64,000 nucleotides of DNA, taken from positions 42,240,879 to 42,304,878 of the forward strand of contig NC_089238.1 of the NCBI RefSeq assembly GCF_963924675.1, given 5' to 3'. This document shows positions 11,402 to 63,750 of the stretch, one piece after another; the first letter of the stretch is position 1; every line of letters starts with the position of its first letter. This DNA comes from Phocoena phocoena. Lineage: Eukaryota > Chordata > Mammalia > Artiodactyla > Phocoenidae. The translations under genes were made by a program, and so were the position numbers. Below the pieces are notes generated by a model. The model did no database searches. It was not told the DNA's origin and saw only the letters and a program-made list of their open reading frames with translations.

Positions 11402-11540
11402 GCCAAGGAATTCCCTGGTGATCCAGTGATTAGGACTGGGCACTTTCACTGCCAGTGGTCCAGGTTCGATCCCTGGTCGGGGAACTAAGATCCCGCAAGC
11501 CACGAGGTGTGGCCAAAAAATTAAAAAATAAATAAAAGTA
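11402..11540 (+). mobile_element. CHR-type SINE, short body
   Basis: AATTCCCTGGTGATCCAGTG head, B box GGTTCGATCCCTGG near 11464, tail with AATAAATAAAAG. A short TSD, aagaaaacat, occurs at 11392-11401 and 11541-11550. Confidence 0.9.
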
Positions 11541-15610: not shown

Positions 15611-15637
15611 CCATGCACTTTCTTTCTTTCTTTTTCT

Positions 15638-15669
<32 letters not shown>

Positions 15670-16040
15670 GTCTCTCTCTCTCTCCTTCCTTCCTCCCTTC
15701 CTCCCTTCCTCCCTTCCTCCCTCCCTCCCTCCTTCCCTCTCTTTTCTTTCATTTTGGCTGCATTGGGTCTTTGTTGCTACGCGCGGGCTTTCTCTAGTTT
15801 CGGTGAGCAGGGACTACTCTTCGTTGCTGTATGTAGGCTTCTCATTGCAGTGGCTTCTCTTGTTGCAGAGCACGGGCTCTAGGCGCGTGGACTTCAGTAG
15901 TTGTGGCATGCGGGCTTAGTAGTTGTGGCGCACGGGCTTAGTTGCTCCACAACATGTGGGATCTTCCCAGACCAGGGCTCGAACCCGTGTCCCCTGCATT
16001 GGCAGGCGGACTCCCAACCACTGCACCACCAGGGAAGCCC
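15611..16040 (-). mobile_element. CHR-type SINE, long body, with a hugely expanded polypyrimidine tail
   Basis: An antisense copy flanked by a perfect 16-bp TSD (tgataaactattctta) at 15595-15610 and 16041-16056. The A-tail side has been replaced by a (CTTT)n/(CT)n/(CCTT)n tract of about 130 bases at 15619-15751. The perfect TSD argues for a young insertion. Long open frames on both strands here are low-complexity artefacts. Confidence 0.95.
15619..15751. repeat. Polypyrimidine compound microsatellite
   Basis: Successive blocks: CTTT repeats, CT repeats, then CCTT/CCCTT repeats. On the minus strand this is a GA/GGAA-rich purine tract that grew from the SINE A-tail. It has mirror-repeat character and could form triplex (H-) DNA. 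Confidence 0.9.
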
Positions 16041-27392: not shown

Positions 27393-27515
27393 GAGGGAGT
27401 CCCCTGGTGGTCCAGTGGTTAGGGCTTGGAGCTTTCACTGCTGGGGCCTGGGTTCAATCCCTGGTCAGGGAACTAAGATCCCACAAGCGATGCAGCACGG
27501 CCAAAAAAATAAATA
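27393..27515 (+). mobile_element. CHR-type SINE, short body
   Basis: AGTCCCCTGGTGGTCCAGTG head, B box GGTTCAATCCCTGG, tail AAAAAAATAAATAAA. TSD aaagggaccaagag / aaaggggtcaagaa. Confidence 0.92.
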
Positions 27516-37857: not shown

Positions 37858-37962
37858 ACTTCCCTGGTGGTCCAGTGGTTAGGACTCTGTGCTTCCACTG
37901 CAGGGGGCGTGGGTTTGATCCCAGGTAGGGGAACTAAGATCCTGCAAGCTTCATGGCGCGGC
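37858..37962 (+). mobile_element. CHR-type SINE lacking its A-tail, joined to an L1
   Basis: GGGACTTCCCTGGTGGTCCA head and B box GTTTGATCCCAGG are intact. The copy ends at GCGCGGCC, where other copies continue into poly-A, and L1 ORF2 sequence follows at once. Confidence 0.9.
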
Positions 37963-39005
37963 CAACCTCCTAGACCCATCTCCTAGAGTAATGGAAATAA
38001 AAACAAAAATAAACAAATGGGACCTAATGAAACGTAAAAGCTTTTGTGCAGTAAAGGAGACTATAAACAAGATGAAAAGACAACCCTCAGAATGGGAAAA
38101 AATATTTGCAAACAAATCAACGGACAGAGGATTAATCTCTGAAATATCTAAACAGCTCATGCAGCTCAATATTAGAAAAACAAACAACCCAGTCCAAAAA
38201 TGGGCAGAAGACCTAAATAGACATTTCTCCAAAGAAGACATACAGATGGCCCAGAAGCACATGAAAAGCTGCTCAACATCACTAATTATTAGAGAAATGC
38301 AAATCAAAACTACAATGAGGTATCACCTCACACCAGTCAGAGTGGGCATCATCAGAAAATCTACAAACAACAAATGCTGGAGAGGGTGTGGAGAAAAGGG
38401 AACCCTCTTGGTGGGAATGTAAATTGATACAGCCACTATGGAGAACAGTATGGAGGTTCCTTAAAAAACTAAAAATAGAATTACCATATGACCCAGCAAT
38501 CCCACTCCTGGGCATATACCCTGAGAAAACCATAATTCAAAAAGACACAAGCACCCTAGTATTCATTGAAGCACTATTTACAATAGCCAGGTCATGGAAG
38601 CAACCTAAATGCCCATCAACAGACAGATGAATAGAGAAGATATGGCACATGTATACAATGGAATATTACTCAGCCATAAAAAGGAACAAAATTGGGTCAT
38701 TTGTAGAGACGTGGATGGACCTAGAGACTGTCACACAGAGTGAAGTTAAGTCAGGAAGAGGAAAACAAATATCGTATATTAGTGCATATATGTGGAATCT
38801 AGAAAAATGGTACAGATGAACTGGTATGCAAGGCAGAAATAGAGACACAGATGTAGAGAACAAACATATGGACACCAAGGGGAGAAAGCAGTGGGGGGGA
38901 TGGGTGGTGGTGGTGGTGGGATGAATTGGGAGATTGGGATTGACATATATACACTAATATGTATAAAATAGATAAATAATAAGAACCTGCTGTATAAAAA
39001 AATAA
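37963..39005 (+). mobile_element. 5'-truncated cetacean L1: ORF2 C-terminus and 3'UTR
   Basis: Sense L1: 'ggaaataaaaacaaaaataa', 'gcagaagacctaaatagaca', 'gagaaatgcaaatcaaaact', 'atgacccagcaatcccactc', 'ggaatattactcagccataa', then a GGT-rich 3'UTR tract (38897-38921) and an A-rich end. Frame 37991-38422 (143 codons) is a readable part of the ORF2 C-terminal region, so decay is mild and the copy is fairly young. The catalytic domains are missing. Confidence 0.93.
38897..38921 (+). repeat. GGT-repeat tract in the L1 3'UTR
   Basis: A (GGT)n run preceded by a G-run, typical of the G-rich tract in L1 3'UTRs, with G-quadruplex potential. Confidence 0.8.
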
Positions 39006-60499: not shown

Positions 60500-60967
60500 A
60501 GTGAAGGATGCGCCTTAGGTGCTCAGCACCCAGGCACCCTTCTCAGTCCGCTCTGCCTGGGCCACCTCGAGGCTCACGTGTGGTTTAGGGGGAAAGGGTG
60601 ATAGAGAGGAACAGTGAAGTGGAACAATACGAAGAACGAAAGCCCGGCAGCGGGGCTGACTCATTGGCTGACTCATTTCCTTACTCAGGGATGATCTGAG
60701 CATCCACCGAGCATCCATCCTCACGTCTTCACACTCTGTTCCCTTTTTGTGGGGAAGACCTCAGGAGGATCGCCCTGCACCCCCGGAGAGTGGGGAGCAG
60801 TGTGCCAGACCTTCCCTTTCATAACCAGGACAAAGGAGAGGTCAGCTAGCTACAAAGTCATTTTCCGATCCACAAAATAACAGTCCCCATATGATGCAAT
60901 CATTCTAAGAAAGGACAGTTTTTGTCCTGGACTACAGGAGAGATTCTAGACTCTTTGTGCCCGTTTC
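60500..60967. other. Single-copy intergenic DNA
   Basis: Nothing recognised. Ends at the duplication breakpoint. Confidence 0.5.
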
Positions 60968-61164
60968 CAGATATCACAGAGATATCTGCATACCATAGAA
61001 CACTTGGAAACCACAGAAAAGTGTAAAGAAGCTGAAAAAAAAAATTCACCCATAATCCTATCATTTAGACTCAATCATGGTGGTGAGTTTGGTATTTTTC
61101 CATTCAATTTTTTTCTCTGTATTTTTTTCATTCTTCGGTCAAGTTTATTTGTTTATATTTGAAA

Positions 61165-61610
61165 CAGCACTATTCAAAAGATATGTGAATCACAGATGTG
61201 AGCCAGTACGTAGTTTTAAATGTTTTGGTAGCCTCATTAAAGGAAAATGCAAGTAAACAGGTAAAATTAAATATGTATTTAACCCAGTAAATCAAAAATA
61301 TTGCCATTTCACCATACAATCAATATAAAAATTATTAATGAAAGATTTTACATTCTTTTTAAGTCTTTGAAATATTTTTTGGGGAATTCCTTGGTGTTTC
61401 AGGGATTAGGACTCCACGCTTCCACTGCAGGGGGCATGGGTTTGATCCCTGGTTGGGGAAGTTCCCGCATGCCCCGCTGCACAGCCAAAAAGAAATGTGC
61501 TACACTATAGCACCTCTCAATCCGGACTAGCCCCTTTCAAGTACTCAACAGATACATGGGATTAGTGGCAATCCTATTGGGACAGCTCTATGAAATTTCA
61601 ATCTTGCCTT
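61165..61610 (+). mobile_element. MER1-like hAT element split by a SINE (copy 1)
   Basis: 'gaaacagcactattcaaaag', 'agattttacattctttttaa', then after the SINE 'atagcacctctcaatccgga', 'ctagcccctttcaagtactc' and 'gggacagctctatgaaattt'. Internal phrases fit a non-autonomous hAT-Charlie element. The family name is tentative. Confidence 0.6.
61379..61496 (+). mobile_element. CHR-type SINE, short body (copy 1)
   Basis: GGGGAATTCCTTGGTGTTTC head, B box GGTTTGATCCCTGG, end CACAGCCAAAAAG. Confidence 0.9.
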
Positions 61611-61661
61611 GGTTTTTTGCTTAAATTGCATCTTAAGTATTTTTTCATATCATAAAATACC

Positions 61662-61869
61662 TTTTTTTTTTTTTTTTGCAGTATGCGGGCCTCTCACTGT
61701 TATGGCTTCTCCCGTTGCGGAGCACAGGCTCCGGACGCGCAGGCTCAGCAGCCATGGCTCACGGGCCCAGCCGCTTCGCGGCATGTGGGATCTTCCCAGA
61801 CCGGGGCACGAACCCGCGTCCCCTGCATTGGCAGGCGGACTCTCAACCACTGCACCACCAGGGAAGCCC
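61662..61869 (-). mobile_element. CHR-type SINE, young type (copy 1)
   Basis: 16-base T-run, then GCGGGCCTCTCACTGTTATG to CCACCAGGGAAGCCC. TSD ataaaataccttttt / ataaaatatctttt. Confidence 0.95.
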
Positions 61870-62306
61870 ATAAAATATCTTTTGAAAAAAGTATTTTAAG
61901 AGTTTAAGCAACATGTATTCACTATCTAATTCCAAAGGTAATAGATTGGTTTCTGTTTTGTTTTTTGTTTTGTTTCTCCTCACTCAGGGATGGTGTGTGT
62001 TAGCCATTTGATACAATTATTTCTAGACTGTATTCTCCGTAAGTATTCATATTGAGCAAAAATTGGACACATATAATATGTTCTGTTTTATAACCACTCT
62101 TTTCACTTACAGATATCACAGAGATATCTGCATACCATAGAACACTTGGAAACCACAGAAAAGTGTAAAGAAGCTGAAAAAAAAAATTCACCCATAATCC
62201 TATCATTTAGACTCAATCATGGTGGTGAGTTTGGTATTTTTCCATTCAATTTTTTTCTCTGTATTTTTTTCATTCTTCGGTCAAGTTTATTTGTTTATAT
62301 TTGAAA

Positions 62307-62752
62307 CAGCACTATTCAAAAGATATGTGAATCACAGATGTGAGCCAGTACGTAGTTTTAAATGTTTTGATAGCCTCATTAAAGGAAAATGCAAGTAAAC
62401 AGGTAAAATTAAAAATGTATTTAACCCAGTAAATCAAAAATATTGCCATTTCACCATACAATCAATATAAAAATTATCAATGAAAGATTTTACATTCTTT
62501 TTAAGTCTTTGAAATATTTTTTGGGGAATTCCTTGGTGTTTCAGGGATTAGGACTCCACGCTTCCACTGCAGGGGGCATGGGTTTGATCCCTGGTTGGGG
62601 AAGTTCCCGCATGCCCCGCTGCACAGCCAAAAAGAAATGTGCTACACTATAGCACCTCTCAATCCGGACTAGCCCCTTTCAAGTACTCAACAGATACATG
62701 GGGTTAGTGGCAATCCTATTGGGACAGCTCTATGAAATTTCAATCTTGCCTT
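62307..62752 (+). mobile_element. MER1-like hAT element split by a SINE (copy 2)
   Basis: Copy of the element at 61165-61610. Confidence 0.6.
62521..62638 (+). mobile_element. CHR-type SINE, short body (copy 2)
   Basis: Copy of the SINE at 61379-61496, identical by eye. Confidence 0.9.
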
Positions 62753-62803
62753 GGTTTTTTGCTTAAATTGCATCTTAAGTATTTTTTCATATCATAAAAT
62801 ACC

Positions 62804-63011
62804 TTTTTTTTTTTTTTTTGCAGTATGCGGGCCTCTCACTGTTATGGCCTCTCCCGTTGCGGAGCACAGGCTCCGGACGCGCAGGCTCAGCAGCCATGGC
62901 TCACGGGCCCAGCCGCTTCGCGGCATGTGGGATCTTCCCAGACCGGGGCACGAACCCGCGTCCCCTGCATCGGCAGGCGGACTCTCAACCACTGCACCAC
63001 CAGGGAAGCCC
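62804..63011 (-). mobile_element. CHR-type SINE, young type (copy 2)
   Basis: Copy of the SINE at 61662-61869 with two substitutions (62849 and 62971). Confidence 0.95.
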
Positions 63012-63254
63012 ATAAAATATCTTTTGAAAAAAGTATTTTAAGAGTTTAAGCAACATGTATTCACTATCTAATTCCAAAGGTAATAGATTGGTTTCTGTTT
63101 TGTTTTTTGTTTTGTTTCTCCTCACTCAGGGATGGTGTGTGTTAGCCATTTGATACAATTATTTCTAGACTGTATTCTCCGTAAGTATTCATATTGAGCA
63201 AAAATTGGACACATATAATATGTTCTGTTTTATAACCACTCTTTTCACTTAATG

Positions 63255-63750
63255 ATACATGTGGACATACGAACAATAATGATGACAATGTCACCTTTGA
63301 GCCTCTGCAGAGAGCCAGGCATGTTCAAACACCTGTTCTCATCTCAGTACTGGGAGGTGGGAGCATTTCCATCCCCATTCCTCAAAAGTGATTTTCATTG
63401 TTGCAAAATTGGGATTCCACCCAGATCCTCTGATTTTATCTCTAGAGCCTTTCATTTTCACCATATGGTCTCCTTCTGGAGGGAGGCAGGCAGGGGATCC
63501 AAGATATGCCAAAGAAGCATTTACAAATTAACTTTTGGAGTAGGATTCTCAAAAAATTGGAGCTGTCTCTACCCATGGGTTTGCCTAACAACCTCTGAAA
63601 CTACCCAGTTAAATCCTGTTTCCCCCACTGCACACACATGCCCCCAAGGCTGCCATCTTCTTGTGGGACATTCTTCCGCTTCCATGTTTCTCCTTCTCTG
63701 TAACTTACAAGAAAGAATCCTGAGAATCTCTCTAAATCCAGATAATTCCT
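63255..63750. other. Single-copy DNA with an unrecognised open frame
   Basis: A plus frame of 179 codons (63252-63791) starts right after the duplication end and runs into a MER20 copy. No domain is recognised, so it is not called as a gene. Confidence 0.4.

Follow-up and report, generated by a model that had tools for sequence, protein, structure and literature searches.

The locus analyzed here raises the question of whether two adjacent, near-identical copies of a 1142-bp unit in a cetacean assembly represent a real and young tandem duplication or two haplotypes placed one after the other by an assembler. The original prediction had offered both readings, and the analysis supports these as the two options to be weighed, with a real duplication favored. 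The window, meaning here the whole stretch of 64,000 nucleotides that was analyzed (C20:42240879-42304878), belongs to a scaffold of 59.6 Mb, in an assembly that totals 2.51 Gb and comprises 439 contigs.

Copy 1 of the unit spans positions 60968-62109 and copy 2 positions 62110-63251, both on the forward strand. When the window was compared with itself at an offset of 1142, identity was complete over 60968-62109 except at six sites and fell to background level on either side, with no intervening bases between the copies and no indels. The same copy pair was recovered independently by self-comparison of the window, and the constant offset originally predicted for the two adjacent copies is exact to the base in both analyses. 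The six substitutions (copy 1/copy 2) are 61228 G/A, 61272 T/A, 61336 T/C, 61561 A/G, 61707 T/C and 61829 T/C, that is, five transitions and one transversion, reproducing the earlier count of six differences (about 0.5%) without any change in length. All nine homopolymers of at least 6 bases are equal in length between the copies, including an A10 run and the 16-base T-run (T16) that had already been reported as shared. The six differences all fall within the central 602 bp, as might happen if conversion had acted on the ends of the unit, but this clustering was not significant (P = 0.14). Tandem (segmental) duplications are defined as two head-to-tail copies of at least 1 kb that are at least 90% identical. 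The adjacent, head-to-tail copies described here are 99.5% identical over 1142 bp, which is far above chance expectation, and would constitute an ordinary member of this known kind; the next-best self-match in the window, at thresholds of 88% identity and an E-value of 1e-10, reaches 93.4% over 121 bp. No other adjacent direct repeat of at least 100 bp and at least 90% identity was found in 311,581 bases, made up of the window, its 10-kb downstream flank, 13 sampled 10-kb stretches and 34 repeat-centered loci, a survey that gives no base rate because the window was selected for containing the duplication.

The breakpoints of the unit have the following sequences (left flank end, CCCGTTTC; unit start, CAGATATCACAGAGATATCTG; unit end, TTTTCACTTA; right flank start, ATGATACATG). 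Exact microhomology at the junction is 0 bp on both sides, and a comparison of 10 flanking bases gives 4 matches on either side. The predicted lack of microhomology therefore holds, with the refinement that the right flank ATGATA (63252-63257, forward strand), reached by the blastn extension to 62115/63257, shares an in-register GATA with the unit start CAGATA after two mismatches, two bases past the breakpoint. Such little or no junction homology is the pattern of nonhomologous or replication-based CNVs. Blunt breakpoints account for 35% of a fly CNV set and for 19% and 11% of two human sets in the breakpoint table of PMC4056370, which covers largely deletions and in which one human set consists of deletions only.

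The left breakpoint coincides with the outer base of a hairpin whose 8-bp stem is perfect and whose loop has 5 nt (60968-60988), identified by repeat search and DNA folding, which recurs at the start of copy 2 (62110-62130; repeat search and background count) and hence at the duplication junction. This edge is sharp for the perfect stem only, since an imperfect stem extends five bases beyond the left breakpoint (13-nt arms at 60963-60975 and 60981-60993, 85% complementary). The 64-kb window contains 20 outermost hairpins with a stem of at least 8 bp and a loop of 3-10 nt, including this hairpin and its copy 2 repeat, and the bases of such stems make up 0.0625% of window positions; the significance of the coincidence is weaker than this raw figure, because the hairpin was spotted post hoc, at one of two breakpoints, and its own dimensions guided the choice of the stem and loop limits. 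Folded as single-stranded DNA, 61 bases at the left breakpoint reach -7.2 and -8.0 kcal/mol on the two strands (z of -3.18 and -3.31), values matched by 0 of 200 and 1 of 200 shuffles. The right breakpoint folds about as well as its shuffles do (z of -0.86 and -0.29, with 41 and 72 of 200 shuffles as good). Non-B DNA is given as enriched at fly CNV breakpoints, at 11% versus 5% (PMC4056370).

Near-identical neighbors on one scaffold are also what false heterotype duplications look like, as described in PMC9516828, and the copies could be an assembly artefact, with a 1142-bp stretch that is single-copy in the animal appearing twice in tandem, once from each parental haplotype. We regard this as unlikely, even though the near-identity of the copies and the 0 bp of exact homology at their junction fit it, and even though false duplications are described as common in older assemblies, with some persisting in curated ones and some free of gaps and joined via wrong gap filling (PMC9516828). 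The signs of false duplication given in that source are half depth, gaps between copies and discordant read pairs, with a gap present in most cases; here, in contrast to most false heterotype duplications, the copies are joined without a gap (a gap being usual but not required in this class), and there is no N at the junction or anywhere in the window. If the copies were alleles, the probability of at least six differences in 1142 bp would be 0.002 at a heterozygosity of 0.05% and 0.023 at 0.1%, but 0.11 at 0.2% and 0.22 at 0.3%, all four values assuming no recombination and being lower still under a Poisson model. The baleen whale heterozygosities taken from PMC13308004, which range from 1.34e-4 (Rice's) to 1.32e-3 (fin), or 0.013-0.13%, all lie below the 0.53% separating the two copies; blue whale genomes, however, are called highly heterozygous (PMC10919930), and in an animal of high heterozygosity two alleles might differ by the same 0.53%. 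An assembler would moreover have no evident reason to place a breakpoint exactly on the base of a hairpin stem, and a clean-ended 1.1-kb error seems unusual for a long-scaffold assembly.

Genome searches were also performed. A 1301-bp query (60900-62200) matched at 99-100% in the two known places only, followed by SINE copies at up to 96%, among 40 scored of 5332 candidates, and a 232-bp query from the unit matched at 99-100% in the same two places only, followed by old repeat copies at up to 86%, among 40 scored of 830 candidates. Nothing among the 40 scored candidates per query therefore points to an unpurged haplotype on a contig of its own. As expected, a 28-base pattern from the unit had no match in a collection of bacterial and archaeal contigs.

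The direction of change was assessed from matches to the repeats that the unit contains. At 61707 and 61829, the copy 2 state, C, is present in all five close (at least 90%), near full-length SINE matches in the window, and copy 1 is accordingly taken as derived at both sites, in which case the change at 61829 would be CpG-to-TpG. The next closest SINE match (88%) carries C at 61707 and T at 61829. Over all window matches covering the sites, the counts are 7 C versus 4 T at 61707 and 6 C versus 18 T at 61829, the T excess at the latter being attributable to more distant SINEs, which often carry T. Across 34 genome loci, fetched with copy 1 as query and scored as matches rather than as independent loci, 61707 gave 14 C versus 8 T and 61829 gave 13 C versus 19 T with the copy 1 query, as against 14 C versus 7 T and 14 C versus 17 T with the copy 2 query. 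Since the counts over all matches are mixed, polarity at these two sites hangs on the closest relatives. The copy 1 state is carried by nearly all matches at 61228 (G in 20 of 20 with the copy 1 query, and in 13 of 14, with one gap, with the copy 2 query) and at 61336 (T in 27 of 28 and in 24 of 28, the latter with two gaps and two C), so that copy 2 is taken as derived at both. The outcome at 61272 depends on the query copy, T outnumbering A by 22 to 1 when copy 1 is used and A outnumbering T by 16 to 2 when copy 2 is used, and the single match that reached 61561 has G, the copy 2 state. The four polarizable differences thus point to at least two changes on each copy, and on these data neither copy is simply an erroneous consensus of the other.

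Taken together, it is likely that 1142 bp of DNA, apparently noncoding, have really been duplicated here in direct tandem orientation, at a hairpin and a few million years ago. This reading is favored over haplotypes in tandem because there is no gap and the divergence exceeds the whale heterozygosities taken from one paper, because derived changes appear in both copies and one breakpoint falls on a DNA hairpin, and because the window is free of N within a long scaffold and only two near-perfect places emerged among the scored candidates. The differences themselves, almost all transitions and none of them an indel, resemble mutations rather than long-read errors. Over several million years the T16 and A10 runs might have been expected to drift apart in length, and their equality counts mildly against a real duplication, although short-read polishing could equalize such runs.

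The divergence of 6/1142, or 0.53% (95% interval 0.19-1.14%), translates into an age of 5.1 My (95% interval 1.9-11.2) at 5.13e-10 per year, a rate that follows from 1.58e-8 per generation and 30.8 years (PMC10919930), and into 2.6 My at a round faster figure of 1e-9 per year; a vaquita rate of 4.9e-10 per year (PMC13308004) agrees with the slower figure. The duplication is thus probably a few million years old, judging from the divergence between the copies. The duplication option of the original prediction was that of a young and possibly polymorphic event; its youth stands in the sense of a few million years, whereas polymorphism does not necessarily follow. A duplication that is real and yet still segregating, whether carried by a single haplotype or polymorphic in the species, takes up a minor share of the probability that we assign to a real duplication and is quite unlikely, although an allele-specific tandem duplication with haploid depth has been reported (PMC9516828). 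Against it stands the age of about 5 My (about 2-11) that the divergence implies for a rate of 5.1e-10 per site per year, which is longer than most neutral polymorphisms last.

The unit contains two SINEs and part of an older interspersed repeat, all of them repeated at +1142. A SINE-like repeat on the forward strand at 61378-61495 (self-blastn coverage 61378-61488, with the end read by eye) is one that we take to be of the tRNA-derived cetacean type, and both SINEs look cetacean and are presumably so. The second SINE (61662-61870), on the reverse strand and identified by self-blastn and from the sequence, occupies 61652-61883 with its flanks and bears T16, which is an A-tail on the other strand; the near-identical 14-mers flanking it, ataaaatacctttt (61652-61665) and ataaaatatctttt (61870-61883), look like its target-site duplication. 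The older repeat (61166-61373, forward strand), 71-86% identical to 38 other genome places among the matches listed in the genome search, is presumably a hAT-type element. A Pfam screen of 10 of the 539 stop-to-stop frames of at least 50 aa (three that overlap the unit, two that lie to its left at no more than 0.8 kb and five at greater distance) produced none above cut-off and a single match far below it (E 0.15), and of the two tRNA-type matches obtained with Rfam at gathering scores neither lies at the unit, which is apparently noncoding DNA without evident function. Duplication of a mobile element or an exon was considered by eye and is not favored, no element ends being recognized, although an exon may have escaped a screen of 10 frames out of 539. 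Homologous recombination between two SINEs or two other interspersed repeats has a negligible probability in spite of the repeats within the unit: as had been predicted, the SINE-like parts (about 61378-61488 and 61662-61870) lie away from both breakpoints, which fall outside all repeats found, and this position, together with 0 bp of exact homology where NAHR calls for long homologous repeats at both breakpoints, excludes SINE-SINE recombination as the cause.

Several other observations were made in the window and in the fetched loci. The tRNA-model matches at 11412-11484 (39.9 bits) and 27401-27472 (30.4 bits) may be the heads of tRNA-derived SINEs and not genuine tRNA genes. A 167-aa open frame at 37919-38419, for which Pfam gave a sub-threshold match only, resembles by eye what we assume to be a decayed LINE-1 ORF2 tail, and a long CT-rich simple repeat of CTTT/TCCT units occupies 15618-15739. 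Seven N runs of 15-458 bases were present in 7 of the 52 fetched loci (L012, L019, L026, L032, L033, L034 and L050).

Non-recurrent small tandem duplications, whose junctions are blunt or show microhomology, are formed by end joining or by replication-based FoSTeS/MMBIR. The duplication described here resembles them in its direct adjacent copies, its 0 bp of exact homology and the non-B motif at a breakpoint, and differs from them in having a hairpin at one end only and in that its mechanism is read from an aged junction. A replication fork may have stalled or broken at the hairpin, after which end joining would have attached the new end, bluntly, to the sister chromatid at a distance of 1142 bp, or else template switching would have re-started it there; the GATA two bases past the junction perhaps helped the re-start or the joining. 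The broader proposal that small hairpins (8-bp stem, 5-nt loop) set the exact edges of kilobase tandem duplications in cetacean genomes appears very improbable. Were it true, stem bases would mark the start of many recent tandem duplicates, and hairpin-anchored template switching would have a clean example in this locus.

Segmental duplications are already known at tens of megabases per cetacean genome, with 20.2 Mb resolved in the blue whale, 30.2 Mb in the vaquita and 43.6 Mb in the bottlenose dolphin according to PMC10919930. The pair analyzed here is like these in being recent, of high identity and slightly longer than 1 kb, and unlike them in lying at the low end of the size range, with no gene in the 10-frame Pfam screen. 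It adds to this class one base-resolved junction with a hairpin edge and a rough age, which has little significance alone. If the locus were instead an artefact, it would show once more that false duplications of small size and without gaps persist in chromosome-scale assemblies. With its junction and six diagnostic sites, the duplication can readily be typed in related whale and dolphin species.
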